From the IMG/VR virus record IMGVR_UViG_3300010354_007082, positions 1 through 54,266 of that record: 54,266 bases of DNA; one strand, 5' to 3'. Positions 1,158-25,300 of the stretch are shown here, piece by piece; positions within the stretch are counted from its first letter, which is position 1, and each line of letters begins with the position of its first letter. Under the pieces are notes generated by a model that made no database searches, was not told where the DNA came from, and was given only the letters and a program-made list of their open reading frames with translations. Origin of the DNA: a virus. Made by a program: the position numbers and the translations under genes.

Positions 1158-2279
1158 TTACTTACTGCTTGGAACCTTACCCTCTACACCTTCTATAAAG
1201 AAGTTAATCTTACCCTTCCATGCATCATCACCAACTTGGTCTTTTTCTAGTACAACTTTACCTGTGTTGTCTTTGATTGGACCCACAAATACATTAAATG
1301 TTCCTGCTTTTAGACCTGATTTTACTTCTTCAACTTTTTTCTTTGCTGAATCACTAACTACATCATTAATCTTAATCAAGTCATTAGCACCCTCTTTAGT
1401 ACCCCACTTAGTATCCGCAGTTTTCCATGTATTGTTTAATACATCGTTTACTGCTTTCTCATAATATGGTCCCCAATTAACAACTGCTGATCCCAAATGT
1501 GCCTTAGGAGCAAACGCACTCATATCACTATCCCAACCAAAAGCATACTTACCATTCTTTTCAGCGGTTTGTAATACTGCTGTACTATCTGTATTCTGTA
1601 ACAGTACATCTGCCTTTTGATTAATCAATGCTTGTGCTGCTTCACTTTCTTTTGGTGGATCGAACCAAGTATTAACCCATACAACTTTTGTAGTTACTTT
1701 AGGATTTACACTGCGCGCTCCTAAGGTGAATGCGTTAATATTACGCAATACTTCAGGGATAGGGAAACTACCTACAAAACCAATTGTATTTGTTTTAGTC
1801 ATAGTACCAGCTACAATACCTGCCAAGTAAGCATCTTCATAAAACTTTGCTTCATAGACACGTAAGTTTTCACTTGTTTTATAACCAGTAGCATGTTCAA
1901 ACTTAACATCAGGATGATCCTTAGCTACTTTTTCCATAGCATCACCAAAACCAAATGATGTAGCAAAAATCAATTTATGACCTTGTGACACTAGGTCACG
2001 GATAACACGTTCTGCGTCAGCTCCTTCAGGTACTTTTTCTACAAAAGTAGTTTTGATTTTATCACCAAATTTACTTTCAATATGTTTACGACCATTATCA
2101 TGGGCAAATGTCCAACCAGCATCTCCAACTGGCCCAACATAAATAAATCCAACTTTTAACTGCTCTGCTGCTTTTGCTGGTTCAACAGGTTTATCTTCTT
2201 TCTTACTACAGCCTGCCAATCCTAATACAGTAAATCCAGCCATTACTATACGCAATAAATTCCTTTTATTAAATGTCAT
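1158..2279 (-). CDS. BMP-family (PnrA/Med-type) substrate-binding lipoprotein
   Basis: A 373-residue protein with a lipoprotein signal: basic start, hydrophobic core, and lipobox L-A-G-C with Cys24; Ser follows Cys, so outer-leaflet or outer-membrane sorting is possible. The mature part matches the basic membrane protein family of ABC-transporter substrate-binding proteins: VGFIYVGPVGDAGWTFAHD, FEHATGYKT, GSFPIPEVLRNINAFTLG, LLQNTDSTAVL, FGWDSDMSAF, and GSAVVNWGPYY. Known members bind purine nucleosides. No transporter permease or ATPase is nearby, so it would need host partners. A strong AGAGGAA ribosome site lies about 7 bases before the ATG, and the gene is the last of the long operon, followed by a terminator. 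It looks like a host gene taken up by the phage. Ligand is inferred from family only. Confidence 0.93.
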   Translation of the reverse strand: MTFNKRNLLRIVMAGFTVLGLAGCSKKEDKPVEPAKAAEQLKVGFIYVGPVGDAGWTFAHDNGRKHIESKFGDKIKTTFVEKVPEGADAERVIRDLVSQGHKLIFATSFGFGDAMEKVAKDHPDVKFEHATGYKTSENLRVYEAKFYEDAYLAGIVAGTMTKTNTIGFVGSFPIPEVLRNINAFTLGARSVNPKVTTKVVWVNTWFDPPKESEAAQALINQKADVLLQNTDSTAVLQTAEKNGKYAFGWDSDMSAFAPKAHLGSAVVNWGPYYEKAVNDVLNNTWKTADTKWGTKEGANDLIKINDVVSDSAKKKVEEVKSGLKAGTFNVFVGPIKDNTGKVVLEKDQVGDDAWKGKINFFIEGVEGKVPSSK

Positions 2280-2300: not shown

Positions 2301-5300
2301 TTATTTAATGTTACCGTATTTGTTATAAAAATATTGTTTACACCATGGCCAATCATAGCTGAGTTTAAGTTTATCGATATCACCATTTACATTATTATAG
2401 TATTCTACTCCATCATTAGCACCTTTAGTACTATATTCAGCAAAGTTACCCTCGGCTTTTTCACACCAAATATCCAATCTTAACTTATCAACAGGCAATT
2501 CACTAGCACTAAGTTTTATAGTTTCACGAAACGATGTACGCCATGTACTGAATTCGTCAGTGTTAAACATAGCTATACCTGAATTAATTCTACAAACTTC
2601 ATGCTCACTATCAAGGGTAAAATCTAATCCTACACCCGAGTTACCTAACACTAATTTTTTATTATAAGCAATCATTGCTTGATGACCATATACTAACCCA
2701 TTAACTGGATTCAATGCGTGAAATATATAATGTTTAGGCTTTTGTAATCTATCAGGTTGCCAACTAAAATCAAACTTTGGATTAATCTTTAATTTAGCAA
2801 ATACTGTAAACATCCATGGAGTATTACTAGCAATAGCAGCAGCATGGTATGATTTAACTCTACCATTTACACCGTCAACTCTTATTACTCTATTATCTAA
2901 ATGTTTAGTATGTTCTATCAAATATTCATAATGCTCGTCAGCTAGTTTTTCGCCATTACTTAAAAATACAATGTCTAATGGTCTGCTACCTACACAAGTC
3001 TTACTTGTTATAATATATGGGTAATCATATAGTTCATCCTTGACATAACTTACTACATCATATGGGATAATACAATTACTTGCCCCAATACTATTAATAA
3101 TAATATTTCTGTCCTGAACTGTCCAAAAACTCATTGGTTCATCTATTTTTACTTTTGTGTCGGCATTATCTATCGTTACAAAATTAATGTATGGAAAGTT
3201 AAATTCACTATTAACAGAATCTACCATTGTATCACTATCAAGCGTAACTATAGGACATTCTACTCTACGTGTTCTAAAGGTTTCGTTAAAATTAATTTTA
3301 TCAAATTTTGATAAATCATCCAAGTCTTTTAACAAATTTAAATTAACAAATATCGTATCGCCATATTTTTGTTTATCACATGGAAATGTATGTAATTGGT
3401 CTATTGCGAATGGATCCACGACATAGGTAAAATCAAAATCAGTATAATCACTCAGTGTACTTACTATCCATACAAAATTATCTGTTTTTGTTTCTTCAAT
3501 AAGTGGTAACAATGTTTGATATAAGTCAACACAATAACGTAGTGTATGTTTTACTTTATTACTTGTTTTATTATTAATATTATCAAAAAAAGCATTTATA
3601 TTTGTATTGCCAAAATCAATAACAATAACATCATATAGACAATTTGTAATAGCTGCCCTACGTGTTTTTACATGATTAATATTAGGCAGATGCTCAATAA
3701 TTTTTATATATTTGGTATCTTCTTCAAACTTTTCACAGTTAACTAGATATGTTGTGCCCCAGTGATTCCATTGTGTACCAAATACATTTACCATACTCAT
3801 TTGCCATGGATTAGGATAATAATTAAAGTCAAAATTAGTATAATCTAATTCGCTATTCAATATCCAACACAATTCTGTTTGTGACTTTTTGGTACATCTA
3901 ACAATAGTATCTACCCAAGTATTTAAAAACCGTGTGCGTTGTATGTTTGGATACAATTCTTTAAGTTTGCTAAAACGTTCTGAACTTTCCTTATTCCCAC
4001 GATCAACAAAAAACATATCAGGTTTTTTGAACGATTGTACTAGAAATTCTTCAGTAATTTGTGTATCATGTTCAACAAAATTAATTAACTTATGGCCTTT
4101 AGCAATCATCTTGCCGTTAACAAGATATGTACATGTTAATTCGCTTTCTGGACTACCAAACGCATTGATATGATAACTGTTATCTTTGTTAGGTCTCCAA
4201 CTAAAATCAAAGTTATCGTAATTTAAATTGCTACGACATGCCCAAAATAACTCATTCTTATGTTTTTCAATAAGTTCATCTAATGAGTTATCAATGTAAT
4301 ATCTAGGAATATCAGTTGGATTAATTTCCTTGCGTAGTATTTTAATAACAGTTCCATCATTACCGGGCGTTATATATCTTGGTCCATCATTCTCATCAGT
4401 TGTAGTACCAAATTGATATATGTATGGTGGACTAGTTCCATCAGGATGCCAACTAAAATCAAAATTGTCTACACGAATATTTTCAGGAATTTCCCAGTGC
4501 TCATTACTTGGTAATACTTCTGCTATAATATCTTCGACATATTTTATTACAGTAGCATCTTTGACAACATACCTTGGCCCATGTGTTTTAGCCCATTGTG
4601 TTCCAAATTGGTATATGTAAGGATCATCATTTGGGTTTGGTATCCAGCTGTAATCAAATTTTTTGACTAAACGTGTGTTTTCAAAATGTTCAGGTCTTTG
4701 CTTTATTGTAGCTATAACATCATGAACATACTTTATTGTTGTGCCTTTTTTATTAACATATTTTACAGTAGGCATAACTTCAGGACCATACCATTGATTT
4801 CCAAACACATACGTCATTGGTGGGTCATATGGATCGGGTACCCAACTATAATCAAATTCTATATCAGTAATTAATTTTTCAAATAAATCGGGTTTATGTT
4901 TAAGTTTTACTGTTATATCATTTATGTATTTTTTATCAGTTGCTCCCTCGACAACATACTGTAATGTGGGCATTTTTTCAGCACTATATTGTGTATTTCC
5001 AAACACATAGATAAATTTTGGTTCCCATGGATCAGGTCTCCAGCTAAAATCAAAACTATCTTCATCAACATCATGTAATAAAAACCAACGATCCCATTCA
5101 GGTTTAACTGGAACATCATCAGTCATGTATTTACGTTGACTACTACCAGGCACATGGTATTCTAGTGTGGGGGTTATAGCACCTGGTATGTATTTATTAC
5201 CCCATGTATATATAAAAGCAGGTTCACGTGGATCAGGTCTCCAAGACAAATCAAAGTTTTCATTATCAACTTGCTGAACCTGTACCATGTATTTGCTCGG

Positions 5301-5816
5301 CAATAATTCAACAATATTATCCATGTACTTTACTTGAGTTGCCCCTGGAACTACATATTCTAATACATGTTGTAATTCATTTGGATAATATTTACAGCCC
5401 CAACGATAGATAAAACTTGGTTCGGTAGGATCAGGATGCCAACTGAAATCAAATTTATTTGTGTCAACATCTTCATAAAACTTCCAGTTACTTGTAATAC
5501 TTACAATGCGGTATACAGGTGTTACATCATTTCTATAAATTTTATATTGTTCATTGGTATTATTTGAAACAAGCCAAGTTCCACTATCTTTTTGATGTTG
5601 ACTAGGCCATATGTTAATATGGTTAATTGCCCACATATCTTCGTCACGTAAACTATCAAAATTAAAATCAAAATCAAAATTAGAATAGTCACAAAACTCG
5701 TTTATTATCCAAAAGTGTTCCGTAGTGGCTAGGCTTTTCGCATGTTCAAAGTCACTAGCCTTACGTTCAGTTGGGTAAACATTAGGTTTTGCCCCGTAAT
5801 AAAATACATCTCTCAT
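2301..5816 (-). CDS. FDFSW-repeat protein with a degenerate C-terminal glycosyltransferase-like domain
   Basis: An 1171-residue protein with about eleven copies of a unit centred on FDFSW-x-PDP followed by I-Y-x-FG, at residues near 47, 122, 188, 255, 321, 387, 452, 536, 662, 793 and 1015. Copies 122-452 are evenly spaced at 65-67 residues. The C-terminal part (about 946-1100) resembles the glycosyltransferase-like protein at 16137-17093: D-I-V-F-LS, RVDGV-x-G, H-AA-x-A-S, FDF, then N-x-V-N-G-L-x-YG and DF-x-LDS. At the place where that protein has DGDN, a likely metal-binding DxD, this one has no DxD. It may thus be a binding or scaffold protein grown by internal duplication from an enzyme. 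No signal peptide or membrane segment is seen. It sits between the carbamoyltransferase and BMP genes, 24 and 21 bases away. Confidence 0.7.
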   Translation of the reverse strand: MRDVFYYGAKPNVYPTERKASDFEHAKSLATTEHFWIINEFCDYSNFDFDFNFDSLRDEDMWAINHINIWPSQHQKDSGTWLVSNNTNEQYKIYRNDVTPVYRIVSITSNWKFYEDVDTNKFDFSWHPDPTEPSFIYRWGCKYYPNELQHVLEYVVPGATQVKYMDNIVELLPSKYMVQVQQVDNENFDLSWRPDPREPAFIYTWGNKYIPGAITPTLEYHVPGSSQRKYMTDDVPVKPEWDRWFLLHDVDEDSFDFSWRPDPWEPKFIYVFGNTQYSAEKMPTLQYVVEGATDKKYINDITVKLKHKPDLFEKLITDIEFDYSWVPDPYDPPMTYVFGNQWYGPEVMPTVKYVNKKGTTIKYVHDVIATIKQRPEHFENTRLVKKFDYSWIPNPNDDPYIYQFGTQWAKTHGPRYVVKDATVIKYVEDIIAEVLPSNEHWEIPENIRVDNFDFSWHPDGTSPPYIYQFGTTTDENDGPRYITPGNDGTVIKILRKEINPTDIPRYYIDNSLDELIEKHKNELFWACRSNLNYDNFDFSWRPNKDNSYHINAFGSPESELTCTYLVNGKMIAKGHKLINFVEHDTQITEEFLVQSFKKPDMFFVDRGNKESSERFSKLKELYPNIQRTRFLNTWVDTIVRCTKKSQTELCWILNSELDYTNFDFNYYPNPWQMSMVNVFGTQWNHWGTTYLVNCEKFEEDTKYIKIIEHLPNINHVKTRRAAITNCLYDVIVIDFGNTNINAFFDNINNKTSNKVKHTLRYCVDLYQTLLPLIEETKTDNFVWIVSTLSDYTDFDFTYVVDPFAIDQLHTFPCDKQKYGDTIFVNLNLLKDLDDLSKFDKINFNETFRTRRVECPIVTLDSDTMVDSVNSEFNFPYINFVTIDNADTKVKIDEPMSFWTVQDRNIIINSIGASNCIIPYDVVSYVKDELYDYPYIITSKTCVGSRPLDIVFLSNGEKLADEHYEYLIEHTKHLDNRVIRVDGVNGRVKSYHAAAIASNTPWMFTVFAKLKINPKFDFSWQPDRLQKPKHYIFHALNPVNGLVYGHQAMIAYNKKLVLGNSGVGLDFTLDSEHEVCRINSGIAMFNTDEFSTWRTSFRETIKLSASELPVDKLRLDIWCEKAEGNFAEYSTKGANDGVEYYNNVNGDIDKLKLSYDWPWCKQYFYNKYGNIK
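4317..5519 (-). repeat. Six regular ~66-residue (198-bp) coding repeats
   Basis: Within the repeat protein, residues about 100-500 hold six consecutive units with motif FD(F/L/Y)SW, then PDP or PNP, then IY-x-(F/W)G, then (P)TL-x-Y-VV-x-GAT and KY-x-x-D. The central motifs start at residues 122, 188, 255, 321, 387 and 452. Units are clearly diverged at the DNA level, so they are old duplications under protein-level selection. Confidence 0.85.
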
Positions 5817-5840: not shown

Positions 5841-7331
5841 TTAATTTTCATACCCTGTTAGAACTTTAGTTTTATAAAAACTTTCAAATCTTTTCGCATC
5901 TTCAACATCATTAACCATTGGTTCCCCTCTTATGTTAAGTGATGTGTTTAATAACATAGGGCAATTTGTTTTTTCATACCATGCTTCAAGTAGTTTTCTA
6001 ATATTAGAATTATCTTTGGGCACAGTTTGAACACGACTTGTTCCATCGTAATGTGTAATGGCAGGAAATTTTTCAGGATAGGAACATTTTGCTATGACCT
6101 GCATATATCTACTATTAGTCCAATTTTTAGGCATAACAAAATATTCATTAACAAATTCTTCAAGAATCACAGGAGCAAAAGGTCTGAATTTTTGCCTACG
6201 TTTTATTTCATTTACTTTATCTTTTATTTCATTACCTCTAGGATCAGCAAGTAAACTACGATTACCTAAGGCCCTTGGACCAAACTCAGCACGTCCGTTA
6301 GCTACTCCTACAATTTTATTAGTTTCTAATTCATTAATAATTTTATTAATAGGATATGCTGCTACAATGTCTTTTCCAAGAAAAGCATTTTGCCAATTTA
6401 ATCTTTTTCCATAACCCAAAGCACAAGCCCCTAAACTAGAACCAGCATCTCCTGGATTTGGCATAATCCAAATATCATTAAAATATTTACCCAACAGTCT
6501 GTTAGCCAAACAATTTAAAGCAACTCCGCCCATATAAACAAGGTTAGAACTTTTACCAATAATATTGGCTTTTGAAATTATTTTTTCTATACATATTTCT
6601 GTTAACAATTGAGCACTTGATGCTATATCCATTTCATTAGCATCTTGTAAAAATTCTCGCTCGATACCTGCGTGTAAATTTTCCTTAAAATCTAATGTAT
6701 CTTCATCTAAAAATCTATTAATCATAGCATTAGTATGTATAGGATTACCATATGCTACCATACCCATTAAAATATATTCTTCATCTAATGGTTTTAACCC
6801 TACATGTTTTGTCATAGCACTATAAAATAATCCAATACTATTTGGATATTTTTTACTATATAATTTTTTATATTTGGCATATCCATTATTATCGTAGCTA
6901 GCGTCCCATATAGTTATTGTATCAAATTCTCCAATAGCATCAATTACTACAATAGTTGCGTCACTAAAATTACTTGTTTGAAAACCGGCGGCAGCGTGGC
7001 TTAAATGATGATTATGTGTGCGTATTTTATCAGTACCAATTAAATTAATAATTTCGTTACCAATCCGTTGTTTGGTACTACTAAAATCAATAGATTGACC
7101 TGCTCTAATTTGTCTTAATTGAGTTAACAATGGACGCTCATAATAATCAATAACTTTAATTTTATCAGTTTTGTAGTTTAGAGCGTCTAGCAAAATATCA
7201 ACATTAAGTTCTTTATCATGTTTTAATTTACTATATCGCTCAGTATGACCTGCGAACAATATATTTCCTTGGTTGTCAACCAACGATATACTAGCATCAT
7301 GAAAGTTATTACTAATACCTAAATAGTTCAT
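5841..7331 (-). CDS. NodU/CmcH-family carbamoyltransferase
   Basis: A 496-residue protein of the usual family length class (slightly short). It starts YLGISNNFHDASISLVDN, the typical N-terminal ASKHA-fold strand. It has the HNHHLSHAAAGF element (His108, His109, His112) of the Kae1/TobZ-like carbamoyl-adenylate part, and the C-terminal YrdC-like signature GRAEFGPRALGNRS at 346-359. These enzymes transfer a carbamoyl group from carbamoyl phosphate through carbamoyl-AMP to a hydroxyl on a sugar or other small molecule. In a cluster with glycosyltransferases and sugar-activation enzymes the likely acceptor is a glycan sugar. Its ATG overlaps the stop of a 37-residue gene (ATGA), indicating translational coupling. 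Acceptor unknown. Confidence 0.92.
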   Translation of the reverse strand: MNYLGISNNFHDASISLVDNQGNILFAGHTERYSKLKHDKELNVDILLDALNYKTDKIKVIDYYERPLLTQLRQIRAGQSIDFSSTKQRIGNEIINLIGTDKIRTHNHHLSHAAAGFQTSNFSDATIVVIDAIGEFDTITIWDASYDNNGYAKYKKLYSKKYPNSIGLFYSAMTKHVGLKPLDEEYILMGMVAYGNPIHTNAMINRFLDEDTLDFKENLHAGIEREFLQDANEMDIASSAQLLTEICIEKIISKANIIGKSSNLVYMGGVALNCLANRLLGKYFNDIWIMPNPGDAGSSLGACALGYGKRLNWQNAFLGKDIVAAYPINKIINELETNKIVGVANGRAEFGPRALGNRSLLADPRGNEIKDKVNEIKRRQKFRPFAPVILEEFVNEYFVMPKNWTNSRYMQVIAKCSYPEKFPAITHYDGTSRVQTVPKDNSNIRKLLEAWYEKTNCPMLLNTSLNIRGEPMVNDVEDAKRFESFYKTKVLTGYEN

Positions 7332-7441
7332 TTGTAAATATATGGGTCTTGTTCTTTCATTTTCTTAAGGCGTTGTCTAAACTTATACTCACGTATAATT
7401 TTTCCTATTGTAAAATGATATAATCTTCTAAACAAATTCAT
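7328..7441 (-). CDS. 37-residue basic protein coupled to the carbamoyltransferase
   Basis: ATG at 7441 gives MNLFRRLYHFTIGKIIREYK, then FRQRLKKMKEQDPYIYK and a TGA that overlaps the ATG of the carbamoyltransferase gene (ATGA). Its start overlaps the end of the GatZ-like gene by 14 bases. The protein is strongly basic, mostly helix-forming, and ends with DPYIYK. The tight overlap on both sides is the main support, since a 97-base gap would otherwise stand out in an operon with almost none. It may be a small partner or translation-coupling peptide. I do not recognise the family. Confidence 0.6.
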   Translation of the reverse strand: MNLFRRLYHFTIGKIIREYKFRQRLKKMKEQDPYIYK

Positions 7442-8450
7442 GGTTCATAGCCCCTAACCTATATTGATCCAGTTCTAAAATTAATATTTCACGCATGGTT
7501 TTTGTAAGTTGCTCGTTGTCAATCGCTCTATGAAGTTGAATACCCAATTTTGAATTAAAGAAATAATGTGCGCTTACTAAAAACTTAGTTTCGTCATCTA
7601 TAACTTCACTCGTAATCCACTTGTTATAATATTTTTGCGACAATACAAAATTAACAAAAAGATCATAATACTCTTTAGCTTGAGTTGAGCATTCACGTAA
7701 TGCTTTTGTATGTATCATACCTAACTGTGGAGCGATATTAAAACAATCTACTCCTGCGTCTAACCTTAAATTAACTTCTCTCGCATGTAGGTAATCAGCA
7801 TTATGTTCTTTAAATAAAAGATTGTTATTGTGTACTAATTCAGTAATTTTTGTTGTAGTATAATTATCAAAATTTCCCACTTGCTTGTGTTTGGTAAGAC
7901 TTCCCGTTTTGGCAACGAAATATTTAAGATTTGGTTTATATTGGTTTAAAAATGACATTTGGTTGTGGTAATAAGAAAAATCACCATTCGTATTACCGTT
8001 GTTATCCTCACTCCCGTATTCAAACATAACATTAGGATTATGTCTCAGGGCAAAGTTAAACAATCGTTCAGCAACTTGTATTTGCTCATTTTGTTCTACT
8101 CTGCTAACATCAATATGTAATAAATCAAAACCATTGTAAGTATCTGTTTGAATTGTGCCAAAACAACGATTTAGTGCTTGTTCTAAATCTAAACCAACAT
8201 CTTTATCACTAAAGTATGGACCACAATGGTCACGGCAAATTAACACATTTTCTTTTACATAATTTTTGTTATTTTTAATAAATTTTACAAGATTTGGTGT
8301 GCTAAAGGCATAACCACCATCATAATCAACTTGATTTCTGCTTGAAATAATTAATAAAGGAAAATCATTCTTAAAACTATATTCTAAACATAAATCTGTA
8401 ACTATAGGACTCATAGGTCCAACACCTAATTTAAATTTTTTCAAGTCCAT
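7428..8450 (-). CDS. GatZ/KbaZ-like (tagatose-bisphosphate aldolase subunit-like) TIM-barrel protein
   Basis: A 340-residue protein that lines up with the GatZ/KbaZ family: S-S-R-NQVDYDGGY at 36-47 (family NQVN..GGYTG), RDHCGP at 73-78 (family GDHLGPN), HIDVS at 112-116 (family HLDAS), KEHNADYLHAR at 214-224 (family EAHSTDY), NIAPQLG at 238-244 (family KVGPALT), and a C-terminal YRLGAM. GatZ and KbaZ were described as non-catalytic partners of class II tagatose-bisphosphate aldolases; no GatY/KbaY partner is present here. In this setting it may be a stand-alone lyase or aldolase for an unusual sugar. It overlaps its KdsC-like neighbour by 20 bases. Family assignment is good; reaction is unknown. 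Confidence 0.75.
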   Translation of the reverse strand: MDLKKFKLGVGPMSPIVTDLCLEYSFKNDFPLLIISSRNQVDYDGGYAFSTPNLVKFIKNNKNYVKENVLICRDHCGPYFSDKDVGLDLEQALNRCFGTIQTDTYNGFDLLHIDVSRVEQNEQIQVAERLFNFALRHNPNVMFEYGSEDNNGNTNGDFSYYHNQMSFLNQYKPNLKYFVAKTGSLTKHKQVGNFDNYTTTKITELVHNNNLLFKEHNADYLHAREVNLRLDAGVDCFNIAPQLGMIHTKALRECSTQAKEYYDLFVNFVLSQKYYNKWITSEVIDDETKFLVSAHYFFNSKLGIQLHRAIDNEQLTKTMREILILELDQYRLGAMNHEFV

Positions 8451-8913
8451 TAATTACCCTTTCCAAATAGATACACGCATCTAATACTGCCCCACTGCCC
8501 GCATCACTTGGTGTAACATATTTAGCAGCTTTTTTTGCTTCTATTCTAGCAGTGTTAGGAGCTATACCAACCTTTACCTTTGATAATATGGGAGCGTCAT
8601 TATACCCATCTGCTATAAAAGCTGTAGTTTCTAAATCACAGTTATCGTAGAACCACTGTAATCTTTCTTCTTCACGCACTAAAATTAATTGATCTGGTCT
8701 ATATTTCCAATCTCTTACAATTCTACAATACGTAATATCCCATCCAGTCTCGTCGGCAGTTATAAACGTAATATCTTTAAGATATTTGGTAATTATTTTA
8801 AAACCATCTTTGTCATGTGGCCCAAAAACTTTAAAGGTTTTTCCATACTTGTTATATAAAATATGTCCAGTATTTAAAACTCCATCAACATCTAACACTA
8901 ATTTTTTAATCAT
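8431..8913 (-). CDS. KdsC-like HAD phosphatase
   Basis: A 160-residue, cap-less HAD protein of the KDO-8-phosphate phosphatase class, with the usual length for that class. DVDGV at 8-12 supplies the nucleophile Asp8 and acid/base Asp10; the flanking VLNTG and later KDGFKI fit KdsC and the NeuA phosphatase domain; ITADE occupies the motif II region at 51-55; ADGYNDAP at 101-108 is motif IV binding magnesium. The family removes phosphate from an eight- or nine-carbon sugar acid or similar compound. No KDO or sialic acid synthase or CMP-transferase is nearby, so the substrate is probably the product of an adjacent enzyme such as the GatZ-like protein. It overlaps both neighbours (4 and 20 bases). 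Confidence 0.85.
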   Translation of the reverse strand: MIKKLVLDVDGVLNTGHILYNKYGKTFKVFGPHDKDGFKIITKYLKDITFITADETGWDITYCRIVRDWKYRPDQLILVREEERLQWFYDNCDLETTAFIADGYNDAPILSKVKVGIAPNTARIEAKKAAKYVTPSDAGSGAVLDACIYLERVINGLEKI

Positions 8914-9629
8914 TTTTCTAAATAAAATTTGTCATACACTTTTGTATCTATGTCAATATCTGTATATAATTTGAATTGTTTTATAAATTGTTGTTTATAA
9001 AATACCTGCCCACTAACATAATTTATATTACGTGCCTGATCAGTAAGCTTGTTTGGATTAATAGACATATCAATAACGCATTTTACTCTATCGGACAAAT
9101 GTTTAAATGGACTTATATTTTCTATGGTTCCCAATCCTGTACAATTAATAACTACATCAAACTCTGAATGTCTTTGTTCCCAGTTGTTCAAACTTCTGCT
9201 GAATACTGATAGATTAACATATTTATTTGCTGTCAGGAAGGTTATAAACATTCTTCCTATTGACCCATTGCCCAAAATACACACATTACTGAAGCTGTTT
9301 ATATTATTACAAACATAAGCTACACCAAAAACATCGGCATTATAACCATGTAGTTTACCAGTTTTATTTATAATAGTATTACAAGACATATAATCTGTCA
9401 CACTTTTATCAACGTAGTCTAACTCTTTGATAACCAAACTTTTAAAAGGCATACTAATTGATATGCCCTCATACTTTTTTTTAGCTTCTAATAAATCCTT
9501 TTGTATATTTTGAATTGACGAACTTTTGGGCATATAAACACTATCGCAATTATAATAGTTAAAAAACTTATTATAAAAATACTTACCCTGTGTTCCTGGA
9601 TTTGAACTATAGCTCACATATGTTTTCAT
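8910..9629 (-). CDS. AroE-like shikimate/quinate dehydrogenase-family protein
   Basis: A 239-residue protein, slightly shorter than AroE (about 270). SMPFK at 59-63 matches the family V-T-x-P-x-K with catalytic Lys63; CNTI at 83-86 matches the NT motif; GYNADVFG at 95-102 matches GxNTDxxG with Asp99 kept and Thr changed to Ala; ILGNGSIGRM at 118-127 is the nucleotide-binding glycine loop. Key catalytic residues are thus present, while the C-terminal region is weakly conserved. Within a glycan cluster it is unlikely to serve aromatic amino acid synthesis and may reduce or oxidise a cyclic or keto-sugar intermediate. It overlaps both neighbours by 4 bases. Confidence 0.82.
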   Translation of the reverse strand: MKTYVSYSSNPGTQGKYFYNKFFNYYNCDSVYMPKSSSIQNIQKDLLEAKKKYEGISISMPFKSLVIKELDYVDKSVTDYMSCNTIINKTGKLHGYNADVFGVAYVCNNINSFSNVCILGNGSIGRMFITFLTANKYVNLSVFSRSLNNWEQRHSEFDVVINCTGLGTIENISPFKHLSDRVKCVIDMSINPNKLTDQARNINYVSGQVFYKQQFIKQFKLYTDIDIDTKVYDKFYLEK

Positions 9630-9955
9630 CTTTTAAAAGCATGTATAGAATAGATTTTTCCATCTTTAAAAGTAATTACGTCAACTACATTTAAAAAGGT
9701 TGATTGTCCGTTTACAATAATATTGATTAATAACTCTGAAAAAACGGTTTGATCTTCACAGGCATTCTGTAATATAGTAACTTTAACACTGTCAACCTTA
9801 TCAAATATTTGTTTATTTGCTTCTAATACTTTATCACGACCTGATACATTATTGTCCCAATCAATTAATTGTACATTAGGATGAAACATTTTCTCTAATC
9901 CTAACAAATCTTTGTTGCTAAATTTATTAAAATATTGTTCAACTTTATTTTTCAC
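9626..9955 (-). CDS. NTF2/SnoaL-like small protein
   Basis: A 109-residue protein with the NTF2-like cone-fold pattern: N-terminal helices ending in LEKMFHPNVQLIDW, then G-R-D-K-V, and C-terminal strands VDVITFKDGKIYSIHAFKR. The start is GTG at 9955, sharing one base with the upstream TAG stop; a strong GAGGAA ribosome site lies just upstream and supports GTG rather than the later ATG at codon 23. Members act as isomerases, dehydratases, hydrolases or simple binding proteins. Its place between the nucleotidyltransferase/kinase and the AroE-like gene suggests a step in the same pathway; the reaction is unknown. Confidence 0.75.
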   Translation of the reverse strand: MKNKVEQYFNKFSNKDLLGLEKMFHPNVQLIDWDNNVSGRDKVLEANKQIFDKVDSVKVTILQNACEDQTVFSELLINIIVNGQSTFLNVVDVITFKDGKIYSIHAFKR

Positions 9956-11478
9956 TATTGTTCCTCAAATAACTTTATACCTAAATACCAAAGTAATAAA
10001 TCAAAGTCAGGAGTATGTAAGGGAGCCATATTCCAAAATATGATCGGCACTAACAATTTTGTTTTTTTAACACTATAATTTTTACTAATTAAAAAATCCT
10101 CAACTATTTTAATATATTGTTCGTAGTTTTGAATATGAGGAATGGTTAATTTAACATGACCATTATTGTACTCATATTGAAAGTTGTTGTTTTTTACTTC
10201 ACTGTAATTAATTATAAATCCACCCAATAATTTAGCAAAATCATAATATATGTCGCCAACCTCAACTAATCCAGCAAATTCATGTCTCCAATCAATTATT
10301 TTAAAATGTTGCGAACTGTCTATAATAATATTATCAAATTGTAAATCCCCGTGTATGAAACCAGGCATGTTTATATTTTCAAGCATATCCCAATCAATAT
10401 TATTTAAGTAATAATAGTATGGTTTAACAGGAATATTGTTAACAGTGTGGGCATTGCCTATATTTGGATACTTTTTTAAAAATAAGTTAACACGTTGTAA
10501 TGTTTTTTCTTTATAAAACTTTTTACAATAGCTATCCAAAGATATATTTTTTTTATTCCAAACTTTGCTATCAAACCAATTTAATAAATTTAGAAGTATA
10601 TCTACGGAGTAATTTTTATAAACAACCTCGCCTTCAAAGTAATCATATACCAGCCATTGCCCAATATTGTTTACATTATTAGGAAATATATTAGTGTTGA
10701 GTTTTGTTTTTTCATATTTTTTCTTTGGTATGGATTCGTCCAAAAACCACTTGATAACTTTATTACTAGTAAAATAAGTAATTTCGTCAGTTTTGGTAAA
10801 ATCGTATTTTTGTGTTTTTTTTACTTCACTATTATATATTTCTAAATTACCAAAATCTTTCCAAGAATTTAAATTAACTTGATTAGTGTCTTTTTCTATA
10901 GCAAATACAATTTCATTACTCTGTGAGGATGACAATCTATGTTTAAAATTAACATAATCTTTGATAAACATAACACCAGTAAATGCTTCCCAATCCATAG
11001 TCTGTTGTATCTTAAACGTCATGTCCTTTACTTTGTTGTTTTGAATTTTAAACATTGTGTAGTGTTCAGACATTTCAGTTGGAACATTTTTTGTAAAAAC
11101 AGTATCGTGCTTTAAGTTAAAACTAGTTAAATCTTCATTATAATATGTATCACAAGGTATATACCAAAATTCACTATTCAAAATATCAAAACACTTACTT
11201 ATTGTATAACCTGGGCCCGATTTTTCACTAACGTAATCATCGATTATAACAAATTTTATTTTTAAAAAAGGATAAACTAACTTACAATAATCAATAACTT
11301 GTTGTGATTGATATCCAATTGGAATTATAAATTGTGTATCTGTAGGAAAACTTTCTATAATATGTGAAAGTATGGGTTTATTTTTATAAGGAATTAATGA
11401 TTTGTTTAAAAATTGAGTAAGTTTTCCTAACCTACTACCCAATCCTGCAGTTGGTATGACTACTGTATTTTTATTCAT
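9955..11478 (-). CDS. Fused sugar-type nucleotidyltransferase and APH/choline-kinase-like kinase
   Basis: A 507-residue two-domain protein counted from ATG 11478, chosen because VVIPTAGLGSRLG follows directly and the start overlaps the upstream stop by 8 bases. The N-terminal half (about 1-235) is a nucleotidyltransferase: GLGSRLG at 12-18, Lys26 of the signature, and YIPCD at 106-110 for metal binding. The C-terminal half (about 270-507) is an aminoglycoside/choline kinase-like domain: HGDLQFDN at 376-383 and IDWR at 395-398, the catalytic and magnesium-binding motifs. The fusion suggests sequential phosphorylation and nucleotide activation of one substrate, as in LicA/LicC (choline) or AmgK/MurU (amino sugars). 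Substrate is unknown. Confidence 0.85.
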   Translation of the reverse strand: MNKNTVVIPTAGLGSRLGKLTQFLNKSLIPYKNKPILSHIIESFPTDTQFIIPIGYQSQQVIDYCKLVYPFLKIKFVIIDDYVSEKSGPGYTISKCFDILNSEFWYIPCDTYYNEDLTSFNLKHDTVFTKNVPTEMSEHYTMFKIQNNKVKDMTFKIQQTMDWEAFTGVMFIKDYVNFKHRLSSSQSNEIVFAIEKDTNQVNLNSWKDFGNLEIYNSEVKKTQKYDFTKTDEITYFTSNKVIKWFLDESIPKKKYEKTKLNTNIFPNNVNNIGQWLVYDYFEGEVVYKNYSVDILLNLLNWFDSKVWNKKNISLDSYCKKFYKEKTLQRVNLFLKKYPNIGNAHTVNNIPVKPYYYYLNNIDWDMLENINMPGFIHGDLQFDNIIIDSSQHFKIIDWRHEFAGLVEVGDIYYDFAKLLGGFIINYSEVKNNNFQYEYNNGHVKLTIPHIQNYEQYIKIVEDFLISKNYSVKKTKLLVPIIFWNMAPLHTPDFDLLLWYLGIKLFEEQ

Positions 11479-11908
11479 GTTCACTAGATATTTTACCGTG
11501 TGTTCTTCCTTGATCGTCCTGTAGTCTAAAAACATCATCTAATTCAGGGGTGCTTGCTTCCATAAACTCTAAATCTGTGATAGCAACAACTCTATGTACA
11601 TAATTAGGAAAAACATTAAATATCACACCAGGCATCAAGTCAACTATGTCCATTGATTTTTCATAATCATTGACTTGTTCATTTGACATACCTTTGGTTA
11701 AAAAAGTATTGATGTTAAAAACATCCCTACTTATGTAAAGTTTACCTGAGCCACTTAAAACATAATTTGTTTCTGTTTTAAATTGATGAACTTGTAAACT
11801 TGTTCTATTTCCTGCTAAAAACAAAATTCTTTTTAATGCGTATGGAGTTTTAATTCCGTCGGCTATCCAAAGTTCCTGTCCCCAATGTTTTTTAACAACT
11901 TTTGTCAT
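11471..11908 (-). CDS. Mannose-6-phosphate isomerase type II-like cupin
   Basis: A 145-residue single cupin. ATG 11908 is chosen over an upstream in-frame ATG at 11926 because AAAGG lies about 6 bases before it and it then avoids overlap with the upstream gene. Features match the C-terminal cupin of ManC/AlgA-type proteins: HWGQELW near the start, SLQVHQFKTETNYVLSGSG (cupin motif 1), VFPNYVHRV (motif 2) and ASTPELDDVFRLQDDQGR at the end. In such proteins the cupin isomerises or binds a phosphosugar. Here the nucleotidyltransferase is in the next gene rather than fused. Its stop overlaps that gene by 8 bases. Confidence 0.85.
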   Translation of the reverse strand: MTKVVKKHWGQELWIADGIKTPYALKRILFLAGNRTSLQVHQFKTETNYVLSGSGKLYISRDVFNINTFLTKGMSNEQVNDYEKSMDIVDLMPGVIFNVFPNYVHRVVAITDLEFMEASTPELDDVFRLQDDQGRTHGKISSEHE

Positions 11909-11918
11909 AAAATTACCT

Positions 11919-12677
11919 TTAATCATTATATATCAATCTTTCACACAACCAATTTAAACTATAACCTGATTTTGTCTGATACCAAAGATGGCTTAATTGT
12001 TTTATACTTTCATAGTCATTTAGATAATAATTTCTAGATATGCTTCTCAAAATAAAAATATCACTTATTGGTGTGATATGTTTAATGTTTGTAAAAAATT
12101 CTTTGAAAATATTTGCTAAATGGACATGTATATTGCTATGATCGGATATTGTTTGAATGTCTTGGTCGATGTTTTTAAGTTTTAACATCTCTTTGTATTT
12201 TCCAATTAATATCACATCTTGCATATGAAAACCATTACGTAGATTTTCATTACTTTGTCCTATATAACCATATATACAATTATCTTCTATCTCATCTAAA
12301 AATTTATCCCACAAAGTTAAATCGTTTTTGAATACTAAATCAGGTCTTAATAGAATAACAACATCATAAAGTATATTGCTTTTTAACATTAAATCTAATA
12401 CGCTATGCCAACGATTTAACATAAGCTTATTAGTAAAAAGGTAGTCAACGTCATTTTTATTATCAATTTTACTATCAAAACAAAGTAAAACATCATTAAT
12501 TTTTTCCGTTGTAATTTTTTCTGAAAGATTAATGTTTAACTTTTCGTTATACTCTGTTGAAATATCCCAAGTACTAAAATAGTAATGAACATAATCTGAA
12601 AGTTTATTAAACTCCCAGTATTTGTAAGCTCTATCGAATTCTCGATACTCTCCAGCTATTAATACTGCTATCTTCAT
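11919..12677 (-). CDS. Glycosyltransferase-like protein of the KIAV-L-x-GE/QPR family
   Basis: A 252-residue protein beginning MKIAVLIAGEYREFDRAYKY and containing VHYYFSTWDIS and VVILLRPDLVF. The layout matches the protein at 13402-14208 (KIAVCLSGQPR, YYFCHAWDYN, FVIKSRYDLVF), so the two are paralogues. Proteins of this type occur in capsule and surface-glycan loci and in phages and are usually annotated as glycosyltransferase-like; the R-x-D-L element is the likely nucleotide-sugar or metal site. No signal peptide or membrane segment. It overlaps its upstream neighbour by 4 bases. Donor and acceptor cannot be read. Confidence 0.6.
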   Translation of the reverse strand: MKIAVLIAGEYREFDRAYKYWEFNKLSDYVHYYFSTWDISTEYNEKLNINLSEKITTEKINDVLLCFDSKIDNKNDVDYLFTNKLMLNRWHSVLDLMLKSNILYDVVILLRPDLVFKNDLTLWDKFLDEIEDNCIYGYIGQSNENLRNGFHMQDVILIGKYKEMLKLKNIDQDIQTISDHSNIHVHLANIFKEFFTNIKHITPISDIFILRSISRNYYLNDYESIKQLSHLWYQTKSGYSLNWLCERLIYND

Positions 12678-14210: not shown

Positions 14211-14714
14211 TTAAAACTCAACAAAAAGTTCCTTATTGTTTTTAGTAAGACAAATAGTACTTATTTGTCTTGACTTTAAAAACTTATAAAAATTTAATTC
14301 ATGTGGTTCTTGACGGAAATAACATCTATAGTATTCACAAGCATGATTAAAGGTTAGTGAATTAGCACAAAACATAGACGGGAAAATACCCGTTCCAAGT
14401 CCAGGTCTCCAATTACCTTTGTAATAATACAAAGTCCTAAAATGTAAATTATTTGGCAGTTCAAAGTAATCAATTAAAGAATCTGAGCAATCATACAAAA
14501 TGTTTATATAGTAGGTAAATCTATGATTGATTTCATATAATCTCTTATCAAACGCGGTATTAAATATTTTTGTAAAGTAATCAGCTTGTTTTTCTGTATA
14601 GAAAAAGTCTAATTTATAATTTGGCAAAAGATTACGAAACTTATCTTTTATTATAGGTATATAATCATTATTTTGATTTACCAAACATATCCCGATTTTA
14701 TTTAATACAATCAT
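14211..14714 (-). CDS. Unknown protein, possibly distant relative of the KIAV-type glycosyltransferases
   Basis: A 167-residue protein that begins MIVLNKIGICLVNQNNDYIP. The strand pattern K-I-G-I-C-L near the start and its place directly before the 14208 gene suggest a short or diverged relative of the two KIAV-type glycosyltransferase-like proteins, but no catalytic motif such as RxDL is visible. It is rich in Tyr, Phe and Asn. Its start overlaps the radical SAM gene by 4 bases and its stop is two bases before the next start. I cannot assign a function; a truncated paralogue is one option. Confidence 0.55.
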   Translation of the reverse strand: MIVLNKIGICLVNQNNDYIPIIKDKFRNLLPNYKLDFFYTEKQADYFTKIFNTAFDKRLYEINHRFTYYINILYDCSDSLIDYFELPNNLHFRTLYYYKGNWRPGLGTGIFPSMFCANSLTFNHACEYYRCYFRQEPHELNFYKFLKSRQISTICLTKNNKELFVEF

Positions 14715-16165
14715 GTATATTCACACTGTTTATAAAAATCAACAAATTCAGGAAAATAATCAACAAACTTGGTATTGTTTCTACGATCATATTCACTGTA
14801 AAACAAATAAAAGTCTTTCATAGCTGTTTGTAAATTAAAATCTATAGGTCCATTTATCCAATCTATAAGTCTTTGAATCTTACTTATTTCAAAGTCATAA
14901 AATCCCTTAAACAAATTGTCTTTTGTTCTTTGATTATTCTCCATAAATTCTTTTGTTTTATAAAGTTCAGGTAAAAAATCTTTGTTAATTTTAGCGTTAA
15001 GCCATATTGGGTATTCAAGTTGTGGCATATCAAACCAAACCAGCTGGCGGTCTGTATTGTATTTAAATCTTAAATCTAAAATGTTTTTAATATATTCGTA
15101 GAAACCAACATAACTTAACACATTAAAGGTAATAATAAAAGTCAAACTATGAGCAGAACCTTCACTTAAATATTGATTTATATTTTTATATAATAAATTA
15201 AAGTCCATTCCATTTCTTATATACTCAGCTTGCTTGCCCCAACTATCAAGACTACAAAACAACATAAAATGCTCAAAAGAATCTGTGCTAGTCATATCGT
15301 GAAGGGAAGTCATAAACTTACTCCATTGGTTTCCAGGTGGACAGCAATTGCTTGTTATACTAAGATGTAAATCTTTTTTTGGATTTTTCTTTACATAATC
15401 AAAAATCCTAAAAGTACTTTTATCCATTAATGGTTCGCCACCAGTCATTCTAAATGTTTTTAGTGTGGGATATATTGTAGGGAACCATTCCCAAAAAGCT
15501 AGCAAGTACGGATTATCAGGCCCATTTTGTGGCCACATATTAGCATTTTTCATCCATATGGTATCATTGTGTTTTGTATTACTTAATTGATATGGACCGT
15601 TTTTATCTATATCTTTCATCCACTCAGTGCTTAAATGCGGGCTACAATAACTACATTTAAAATTACATGCTTGGTTAAAATTTACTTCAACATACCTAGG
15701 GCGAGCGTTCCCAACATAACCTAATTTAAGTGCTTCTTTGATTATTCCTTCTTCATAGATATCATTACTACGATAAGCTCTATCACTTAGTTGTTCTCCG
15801 CTGTCCTCTATTCTCCAACAAAATTCACATTCATTTGGACGAACTCCATCCAACATTAATTTTCTTTGTTCTTTTTTATATTTTGTATTATGTAAAGCAC
15901 TTACATCTATTTCAATTTCTTGTAAAGGTATATGATGACTGCGTGGATGATAACAGCTATGTGTTTGACCTGTAGGAATATGTATACTTACATTAAACCA
16001 CTTAGCCAAACAAAAACTTGGGCTAACCTCATTTAACTTTTCAAATACTTTTTTTGTGTTGTGACCATAGTAACTTTCAAATTGGTCATTATTTACAACT
16101 GATTCATTACCTTTCGTACCCTGTATTTCTGACAATTTACCATCCTTCAATTTGGCGTATAACAT
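14711..16165 (-). CDS. Twitch/SPASM-type radical SAM protein
   Basis: A 484-residue protein. The SAM-binding iron-sulfur cluster motif C-x3-C-x2-C is at Cys167, Cys171 and Cys174 (QACNFKCSYC), with MTGGEPL at 240-246 as the GGEP motif. Ahead of it, Cys71 and the pair Cys113/Cys116 (NECEFCW) look like an N-terminal twitch-type auxiliary-cluster region, as in a common phage family of twitch-domain radical SAM proteins. Substrates of this phage family are not established; modification of a peptide, sugar or cofactor is possible. The start overlaps the upstream gene by 29 bases, with AAAGAG as ribosome site; no better start exists before codon 104. Confidence 0.85.
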   Translation of the reverse strand: MLYAKLKDGKLSEIQGTKGNESVVNNDQFESYYGHNTKKVFEKLNEVSPSFCLAKWFNVSIHIPTGQTHSCYHPRSHHIPLQEIEIDVSALHNTKYKKEQRKLMLDGVRPNECEFCWRIEDSGEQLSDRAYRSNDIYEEGIIKEALKLGYVGNARPRYVEVNFNQACNFKCSYCSPHLSTEWMKDIDKNGPYQLSNTKHNDTIWMKNANMWPQNGPDNPYLLAFWEWFPTIYPTLKTFRMTGGEPLMDKSTFRIFDYVKKNPKKDLHLSITSNCCPPGNQWSKFMTSLHDMTSTDSFEHFMLFCSLDSWGKQAEYIRNGMDFNLLYKNINQYLSEGSAHSLTFIITFNVLSYVGFYEYIKNILDLRFKYNTDRQLVWFDMPQLEYPIWLNAKINKDFLPELYKTKEFMENNQRTKDNLFKGFYDFEISKIQRLIDWINGPIDFNLQTAMKDFYLFYSEYDRRNNTKFVDYFPEFVDFYKQCEYT

Positions 16166-22340: not shown

Positions 22341-25300
22341 CTACATACCACTTTTTAAGAACTCAGCTGGATATGTATTACTTATTTGTAATGGCATAGT
22401 TAAGTCAGTGTCGTATGTATTTGTGCTGTTCCAATCAGTATCATAGTACTCTGGTCCTAATAAATTACTATCAAATATTGCATAAACACGGTTATACTTT
22501 TCAACAAACGTTAATGTTGGGGTAACATTAACACCTCTTGTTAATCCAGTAATTTCATTAGTACCAAGATTATAGCTAGTAAACTTAATTTGTTCTCCAT
22601 TAACATATATCAAACCACCAATAATCATAGTAATCGTAACACTGTTTCCTGCTGCTATATAAGTAGGATTGTTTTCAATCTCTAAGATAGGTTGATTTCC
22701 ATTAAATGTTTGTGTTACAATATTATTTGGAATAGCTACTGCCAACGTATTATTATATAATGTATATCCCAATATCTTATTGCTATTTTCAGTTAATTGT
22801 AACGTAAACACATTATTTGCTAACGCAGGCACAGTTTGTGTACTTTCTACATCTTGTAACAACTTACTAGCATCATATACAGTAATTGTTGATGTAGTAT
22901 CTGTGATATCCTCAGTTAACCAAGTGGTTGTGCTTTCTGCTGTTCTATAGATATTTGGAGTATTGTCAACAAACACATTATTAAAGTACAATTCGTTATT
23001 TGGTGTTGCGCTAGGCATCATACTTAAAATAGTGACATAATCACTTACATTGCTTAAAGCAACTTCAATTCCAACAAAATTATTATTATAAACTTGTAAT
23101 TTTTCACTAGGTACACGATAACCATTTACAGTTACCCATAATCTATCAACATCATCTTGTTTAAATTGACTAATGTTTACAACTCCAACTGCGCTAGTTA
23201 ATACATATTCATTACCATCTTGTGTACTGCTAATCGTTATTGATTTAGCAAAAGCTGTTCCATCTCCTGAACCTGCCCCAGTAGCAATAAATGTGCCTCC
23301 AGTGACTGGAGCACCAACATAACCAATTGCGTTCCAATTAGTTGTACCCAAATCTTGAATGATATATTCTTCATTTACAATGAATGATCCTGCTGTGATA
23401 CTTGGACCAACTTCTAATATCCAATATAAATCATTGTCAACAATACCACCAACTAAACTATCTCCATTGACAGTAGTTAGGCTTGTAAAGTATACAGGAG
23501 TTCCCGGTACTAACTTATCTATACTTGAAACACTGATTCTATTAACTGTAGCAAATGTTCGTACTGTAGTAGCTGTTGTTAATGTGAATGTCCTATCATT
23601 CCAAGCGAATCCTGTTCCTGTATAAGCATCAAATATACTAACTGCGTCTGCTGCGTCTAATCCAGGATCTGTAAACAATTCATAACTTGTTGGGCTAACA
23701 ACACTTACGTACAGTGTTCTATCATTAATTTGTGAGGTACCAGTTACACCGCCGAAACGTATAGCATCACCATTGCTTAATCCTAAGGTAGCACTTAGGT
23801 TGACTTGTGCTCCTAAGTTAGGACCTGTTGTGATAGAAGAAATTGTTACTACAAGTCCTTGTATATCAAATTGTGTGTTTAGGTATTGTCTAAATGTTTG
23901 ATTAAACGTAGTTACAGCTACAATATCGTTTAATGACAATGGAGTTACAAAAGTCAAGCTAGTTGTAGCAAAATCAATCGTATACCCTGAACTTACACGT
24001 AATCCATTTACTTCAACAATAGCATCTGTTTCATTGTCATACGCACTATAATTGCTTAGTATAAACACAGTTTGACCAGCGGTAGCAGTAAATACCTCTG
24101 TTTCAGGTAATGTGTAACCATATTGTTCTGGCTCAGTTTCACCAAAGAAACTATAAGCTAAGTAATCTGTGCTTGCGTCATATTGACTAGCAAACACGAC
24201 TTTTGCTTGTACTCCATTTGGTTGTAATCCAATAGCATAATCATTAGTTACAAAAACACTGCGTCCTGTAGCATTTGTTAATGTTAGTGGATTACCTGGA
24301 CTTAATGGATCTTCTAATCTAAACTTAGTACCATCTACAATATTTAAGATGTTATAGCTTGTTTGTGGTGTAACAACTCCAAACATGTTATCATCAAAAA
24401 TAATTGTGTCGCCTGCGTTCAATCCACCTGTTGTACTTACTACAACTGTATTTGTACTAGAACGTGTAGCCAACGCAACATTAGTACGTCCAACTAATAA
24501 CCTATCACCATTATGTTGAACATATGGGTCAGTCCAAGGAACACCTGCTCCTGAACTTAATATTGCTGTCATGTTTCCTGTAGCATTACTTAATGCAAAT
24601 ACAGGACCAGCAATACCACTAGATATTGTAGCACTTATTACAATTGAACTGGTTGCTGTGTTAATGAACTTAACATAATAATTCGTATCAGCAACGATAT
24701 TACCAAAAACTGTACCTTGGAATCTTACTGTAGCATTTAATGTAAACGCTGAAACATTATCTACTGTAATCGTATTGTAGGTACTTTCTGTTTGTGTACA
24801 ATTTACATTTGTAACATAAGGTAAGTCTTGTATCAACCCACTACCATTTGTAATTGTCTTACTATAATTACAATTTAGATATATTTCATCAAATCCTGTA
24901 TTATCATCAGTTCTGATAGGATCAATAAATGTATTACTTTTAACTAGTTGATCGCCATTTCCAACTTCATAAACATCAATACGTAATTGATCACCTACTG
25001 TTAATGTACTGTTCAATGTGACAGTTTGTGCTATCCAATCTACAGTATAATCATTGGTTACATATATTGATGTTGATAGTCCTGTTGCTCCATCAATAAC
25101 AAATAATGCTAATTGAGCAGGAATTTCAACCAAATTAGCAAAACTATATATAACTTGATTGCTTGGACTTGGTGTATATACGTTGCTAACAACATTGTAT
25201 CCAACGTGTTGATATAATGTAGCATCCCAATTTGTACCAGGGCGTGTATTAACTTGAATTGTTAAATTATCTTCAACAATACCAGGAATCATTTCTTCTG

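Follow-up and report, generated by a model that had tools for sequence, protein, structure and literature searches.

The Escherichia coli proteins GatZ and KbaZ epimerize fructose-6-phosphate at C4, and GatZ together with a phosphatase of the HAD family turns this sugar phosphate into tagatose (PMC11907403). In that work the base and metal residues of GatZ (D87, H88, E171 and H257) were named from a modelled site, and E44 and K279 are given as conserved marks specific to the family. A 5-ketofructose reductase has been described as a relative of the shikimate dehydrogenases (PMC7954740). We have analyzed a virus record of IMG/VR, IMGVR_UViG_3300010354_007082 (54,266 nucleotides, the whole of which is called the window here), in which a GatZ-like gene, a KdsC-like HAD gene and an AroE-like gene follow one another. 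Our analysis indicates that they are part of a larger cassette conserved among viruses. That this cassette makes an activated derivative of a rare hexose for a phage-directed glycan is our preferred explanation, held to be about as likely as not. The genes concerned are the following.

7428-8450, minus strand: GatZ-like (beta/alpha)8 protein, 340 amino acids (PF08013), predicted metal-dependent ketose (phosphate) C4-epimerase
8431-8913, minus strand: KdsC-like HAD phosphatase, 160 amino acids (TIGR01670, E 3.1e-16, below cut-off)
8910-9629, minus strand: AroE-fold NAD(P)-dependent oxidoreductase, 239 amino acids (TIGR00507, below cut-off), predicted keto-sugar reductase
9626-9955, minus strand: SnoaL-like small protein, optional (PF12680, 49.2 bits)
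9955-11538, minus strand: fusion of a nucleotidyltransferase with an APH/choline-kinase-type kinase, start possibly at 11478
11471-11926, minus strand: cupin resembling type II phosphomannose isomerase (PMI), predicted sugar isomerase (PF01050, TIGR01479)
5841-7331, minus strand: NodU-type carbamoyltransferase, frequent downstream neighbour (Carbam_trans_C and Carbam_trans_N; phrog_1601, E 7e-100)

Conservation of the cassette among viruses

The first three open reading frames (ORFs) overlap, by 20 bases between the GatZ-like and HAD genes and by 4 bases between the HAD and AroE-like genes, and the run of overlapping or abutting genes extends from them up to a radical SAM gene. Coordinates, family matches and residue conservation agree with the original prediction, which had described three adjacent overlapping genes with their catalytic residues kept. 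We searched IMG/VR with the GatZ-like protein (71 loci), with an AroE-like profile (best 80 of 90 relatives) and with a HAD profile (40 loci); many contigs are common to these sets, which are not independent. The 181 GatZ-like loci were merged into 60 clusters at 90 percent identity, of which the 47 with at least 4.8 kb upstream were counted and the 13 with less were left out. Gene content and order are strongly conserved. In 46 of the 47 clusters the AroE-like, fusion and cupin genes were all found on the same strand within 7 kb of the GatZ-like gene, and in the remaining one (L105) they adjoin it on the opposite strand. Seen from the other side, all 80 of the AroE-found loci (the best 80 of 90) carry the GatZ-like gene, again on the other strand in L105, as do 36 of the 40 HAD-found loci, L205, L206, L207 and L208 being those from which it is absent. 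The same order recurs over divergent viral contigs, indicating that the arrangement is not due to chance and that the trio and the fusion form one conserved, pathway-like unit, as had been proposed. The list of genes was incomplete in one respect, the omission of the PMI-like cupin, which is as constant a member as the AroE-like gene. The viral cassette would thus consist of the cupin, the fusion, the AroE-like gene, an optional HAD (23 of 47 clusters) and the GatZ-like gene. NodU was found within 7 kb of the latter in 36 of 59 clusters, and in the marine virus AG-345-E15 (L211) the GatZ-like, fusion and cupin genes matched. That the genes are mere passengers, copies with no joint role, might be suggested by the optional character of HAD and SnoaL; with order and catalytic residues kept over divergent contigs we consider this the least probable explanation of all.

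SnoaL is present in 16 of the 47 clusters. Clusters with HAD only (22), SnoaL only (15), both (1) or neither (9) give counts that look like an exchange, and the window itself carries both genes; an independent-pairs sign test on the GatZ tree gave p 1 (5 pairs), and we do not claim that they are functional substitutes. Of the 50 viral rows in the tree (61 rows in all), 49 fall together on the same side of a branch supported at 87/89; L105, the one left over, is a long branch of unsure placement. No description of such a cassette was found in the open-access articles searched, judged from titles and the starts of abstracts.

The fusion homologues were found through neighbouring genes. A scan of viral contigs with the fusion of the window gave no relative, the patterns being probably too specific, while one of 50,697 phage records matched at E 1e-10 and no plasmid did at E 1e-8. 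Among the loci lacking the GatZ-like gene, L205, L206 and L207 carry a related HAD and fusion with no match to either the GatZ-like or the AroE-like protein. L206 and L207 have equal scores and look like the same sequence, so that we count two cases of exchange and not three. Between HAD and fusion, both L205 and L207 have a SIS gene and a gene of the ribulose-phosphate 3-epimerase family, which gives an alternative viral cassette:

L205, 2528-5791: HAD, hexuloisomerase-like SIS protein, 3-epimerase-like protein, kinase-nucleotidyltransferase fusion
L207, 7980-11285: the same four genes

The SIS gene of L205 scores 118.3 against a cut-off of 160 for 6-phospho-3-hexuloisomerase, and its epimerase gene 124.5 against 212.6 for rpe and 108.7 against 271 for D-allulose-6-phosphate 3-epimerase; both families are enzymes of ketose phosphates. 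This swap of modules is our best hint that the GatZ-like protein may be the epimerase module for HAD and fusion.

The predicted enzymes and a candidate pathway

Gene content, the conserved gene order, residue conservation and folds are results of computation, and from them we infer a route, including every reaction, substrate, product and acceptor and the order of the steps. The GatZ-like protein would invert C4 of a ketose phosphate by metal-dependent retro-aldol/aldol chemistry, in the simplest case converting fructose-6-phosphate into tagatose-6-phosphate. The phosphate would be removed by the KdsC-like HAD, or by a host phosphatase where HAD is absent, and a hexitol would result from reduction of the keto group by the AroE-like protein. 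In the fusion, the C-terminal kinase would then add a new phosphate and the N-terminal nucleotidyltransferase would produce a nucleoside diphosphate (NDP) derivative, which a neighbouring glycosyltransferase-like protein could use. The PMI-like cupin may interconvert aldose and ketose and thereby supply this pool or draw from it. The original prediction already had this order, from phosphorylated precursor through dephosphorylation and reduction to activation; it agrees with the types of enzyme and with the E. coli GatZ/HAD parallel (PMC11907403), and we keep it as a proposal. Stated in full, and held only tentatively, a phage GatZ-type C4-epimerase and an AroE-family keto-sugar reductase might yield an NDP-activated ketose or hexitol of the tagatose series, on a shared platform of HAD and kinase-nucleotidyltransferase into which different ketose-phosphate epimerase modules can be plugged.

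The GatZ-like protein passes the gathering cut-off of PF08013 (46.7 against 26.7 bits) and fails the equivalog cut-off of TIGR02810 (39.7 against 568.8 bits). Its residues D74, H75, E148 and H216 correspond to D87, H88, E171 and H257 of E. coli GatZ, and this metal/base quartet is invariant over the 31 viral rows and the six cellular relatives aligned. The structural model (mean predicted local distance difference test, pLDDT, 94.2) found the GatZ-type structures 2fiq and 3txv as best matches with Foldseek. In a second comparison, with VIA-align over the 1000 best of Foldseek, the same two came first (2fiq, Z 32.2, root-mean-square deviation (rmsd) 3.0, 331 residues aligned; 3txv, Z 30.2, 3.1, 322), followed by the tagatose 4-epimerases 9kcs (Z 27.6, 3.1, 324) and 9lhw (26.5, 2.8, 306) and by UxaE, 6il9 (26.1, 3.0, 309). 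Overall the sugar 4-epimerases gave Z values of 27.6 to 25.0 and the class II aldolases 23.4 or less (best 1gvf, Z 23.4, rmsd 2.6, 251 aligned). The model appears to fit sugar C4-epimerases better than class II aldolases, a ranking that is no more than suggestive because Z is lowered in the aldolases by their shorter length. We base the epimerase reading on the quartet, on this ranking and on GatZ itself being a fructose-6-phosphate 4-epimerase. Alternatively the GatZ-like protein might be a true aldolase, joining two pieces into a longer or branched sugar phosphate that the other enzymes dephosphorylate, reduce and activate; this would be in keeping with the class II aldolase-type barrel, with the full metal site and with the asparagine found here at the position of GatZ K279. 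We hold it to be improbable, given that epimerases outrank aldolases in the structure comparison and that the metal ligands are those of GatZ (His-His-Glu), where aldolases have three His (PMC11907403).

With C4-epimerization preferred, the name has to be corrected, as the GatZ-like protein need not be an aldolase helper here. Of the usual partners, no GatY-type aldolase above cut-off, no 3-deoxy-D-manno-octulosonic acid (KDO) or sialic acid synthase and no other shikimate enzyme was detected with Pfam among the 20 window ORFs scanned, in a record that may be a fragment. The missing GatY had been taken as a clue to a new pathway. However, GatZ and KbaZ act alone as 4-epimerases (PMC11907403), and since E. 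coli GatZ is itself a fructose-6-phosphate 4-epimerase the lack of GatY says little.

The AroE-like protein reaches 86.5 bits with TIGR00507 (E 1.6e-24), against an equivalog cut-off of 200.2. Its K63 and D99, equivalent to the catalytic K65 and D102 of AroE, are kept in 29 of 29 rows. The equivalent of AroE S14 is a serine in 26 of the 29 rows, and that of S16 is Y, N, F or H and never a serine in all 29, in a part of the alignment that is uncertain near the N-terminus; in AroE, S14 and S16 are the serines that bind the shikimate carboxylate. A shikimate enzyme is unlikely here, and this name is corrected as well. The model (pLDDT 96.4) has HI0607 (1npy) as top match, by sequence (E 1.5e-36) and also by Foldseek, and the 5-ketofructose reductase 7col is also among the structure matches, at 18 percent identity. 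The presence of this enzyme in the AroE fold family supports the assignment as a keto-sugar reductase. AroE enzymes reduce cyclic ketones, and the K/D pair is kept, as would suit a cyclitol, one of the possibilities that had been put forward; the ring would be closed by the GatZ-like protein, through intramolecular aldol addition, and the cyclic ketone reduced by the AroE-like protein. We found nothing pointing to a cyclitol: the 20 ORFs scanned gave no match to a cyclase family, the equivalent of the carboxylate-binding S16 is not a serine in any row, and the closest structures to the GatZ-like protein act on open-chain ketoses. This makes a cyclitol pathway very improbable.

The HAD is below the cut-off of the KdsC/YrbI subfamily TIGR01670 (59.7 against 106.95 bits), and its catalytic D8, D10, T52, D102 and D106 are invariant in 16 of 16 rows. 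In the fusion, APH was matched, and NTP_transf_3 (Pfam), Arch_glmU and HddC were below their cut-offs; its profile matches in the PDB were nucleotidyltransferases of sugar-1-phosphates and phosphocholine, including CTP:phosphocholine cytidylyltransferase 1jyk. IspD (PF01128) gave 11.6 bits against a cut-off of 27 on the cassette, and no PF01370 was found in it. The cupin of the window is weakly similar to type II PMI (E 0.0019). At E <= 0.01, PF01050 and TIGR01479 are matched by each of the 18 cupins aligned, and a search of PDB sequences with the cupin profile was negative at E 0.01. These data bear on another route, in which the C4-epimerase and the PMI-like cupin convert fructose-6-phosphate to the phosphate of a rare aldose of the talose or galactose type, HAD and kinase move the phosphate to C1, and an NDP-aldose results, the AroE-like protein acting later or in a side branch. 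It draws on a cupin as conserved as the fusion, with the type II PMI match in 18 of 18 members, and on a nucleotidyltransferase half that resembles sugar-1-phosphate enzymes, which is why we keep it as a rival. Besides, a related cupin lies near the GatZ-like gene in a planctomycete (L093) and adjoins it in a Sinorhizobium plasmid (L213, 6013-9489), where the GatZ-like gene is followed by the viral-type cupin (E 1.1e-36), a DegT aminotransferase and a HAD-IA gene, a set that might make an amino sugar. However, the aminotransferase beside this pair would presumably act, like a reductase, on a keto group, and the near-constant AroE-like gene is left without a clear job, so that the NDP-aldose route seems to us rather unlikely.

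Several observations speak against epimerization followed by reduction to a hexitol. At the positions of GatZ E44 and K279, all 31 viral rows have I/V and N, and the six cellular relatives have I and N, so that the substrate or the reaction may differ; judged by its residues, the protein looks like an active enzyme of a sister group whose pocket is altered. The AroE-like gene is missing from L200, a cluster left uncounted, where a glycosyltransferase lies between fusion and HAD instead. L211 had neither AroE-like nor HAD match at E 1e-3, and the AroE-like profile matched none of the 12 loci from our scan of species genomes, including the planctomycete L073. Its absence from L200, L211 and L073 indicates that reduction is not always needed. 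HAD in turn is absent from 24 of the 47 viral clusters and is not the fixed step that had been assumed. The nucleotidyltransferase half is nearer to sugar-1-phosphate enzymes than to polyol enzymes of the IspD/TarI type, which favours an aldose or a ketose-1-phosphate over a polyol. No substrate is known for HI0607, and no cassette member has a known enzyme activity. One shikimate-dehydrogenase-like protein was inactive on 5-ketofructose (PMC7954740).

Cellular relatives and the phage setting

Bacterial capsule loci had been named as the place to look for the trio, and the genes are in a phage record instead. Two conserved peptides, searched for in 84,980 species genomes, led to 12 GatZ-like loci, which with L093 and L212-L215 make 17 cellular loci. 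The full trio was found in none of the 17; what they do contain is the HAD-GatZ pair in two planctomycetes, joined by the fusion in one. In the latter (L073) HAD adjoins the GatZ-like gene with the fusion next to them, the only one of the 12 with HAD beside it (L074 has a weaker HAD match at about 2.8 kb), and in this stretch we assigned ORFs, by eye, to polysaccharide export and to sugar transferases. In the second (L093), HAD and the GatZ-like gene come with another ORF and a match to the cupin; of 392 planctomycete genomes, only 2 matched at E 1e-15. L080 combines the GatZ-like gene with a gene of the 3-epimerase family, a family 2 glycosyltransferase and a weak HAD-like ORF below cut-off, and plasmid relatives are found in fructose phosphotransferase system (PTS) operons, with a transaldolase (L212) or a fructose-6-phosphate aldolase (L214). 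Conservation of the cassette, swapped modules and these relatives in ketose-phosphate or glycan contexts together support a pathway.

Baseplate and other virion genes occupy much of the remaining window, which makes the cassette a phage gene run adjoining tail genes. We would read the phage as T4-like from these genes. Other features of the window are:

41965-45318: baseplate wedge (phrog_10646, E 6.5e-257)
22341-41963, minus strand: single open frame of 6540 codons, giant probable virion protein
14711-16165, minus strand: radical SAM protein with Twitch domain (NF033640, 303.8 bits against a cut-off of 170), with homologues recurring in related loci, sometimes several per locus
2301-5816, minus strand: protein of 1171 amino acids in which an FDFSW-like motif occurs ten times, in several cases ahead of a FIYxFG-like stretch; no match in Pfam and PHROG searches
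1158-2279, minus strand: full-length, phage-borne Bmp/PnrA-like substrate-binding protein (PF02608, E 3.5e-61) with a lipoprotein-like start (LGLAGC) and no PHROG match at 1e-5

If the proposal is right, phages would possess all the steps towards an uncommon activated sugar, glycan synthesis would have recruited folds of both the GatZ and the AroE type, and the swap of epimerase modules would offer a way to predict sugars from gene content.

Comparison with known systems

UxaE and the tagatose 4-epimerases (6il9, 9kcs, 9lhw) share the barrel and the type of epimerase with the GatZ-like protein, but they are larger (about 490-500 residues), with 10-12 percent identity to it. They act on unphosphorylated substrates. 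The AroE-family 5-ketofructose reductase (7col/7cok) and HI0607 (1npy) share the fold of the AroE-like protein at a low identity of 18-20 percent. The E. coli GatZ/KbaZ tagatose route is alike in fold, in metal/base residues and in the succession of epimerase and HAD phosphatase, whereas in the window E44 and K279 are replaced, the HAD is KdsC-like and not HxpA, and the genes are phage-borne and continue with AroE-like protein, kinase and nucleotidyltransferase (PMC11907403). For polyols the closest published logic would be that of CDP-6-D-glucitol and CDP-mannitol (HS5.18/HS5.17, Mnp1/Mnp2), in which a ketose phosphate is also reduced and activated with a nucleotide for a surface glycan. There a PF01128/PF01370 pair adds the nucleotide before reduction (PMC10918830), while here PF01370 is not found, IspD is below cut-off and a kinase is fused to the nucleotidyltransferase. 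Nucleotide-activated rare sugars and phage sugar genes were known already; the combination of a GatZ-type epimerase, an AroE-type reductase and a kinase-nucleotidyltransferase fusion, as predicted here, appears to be new.

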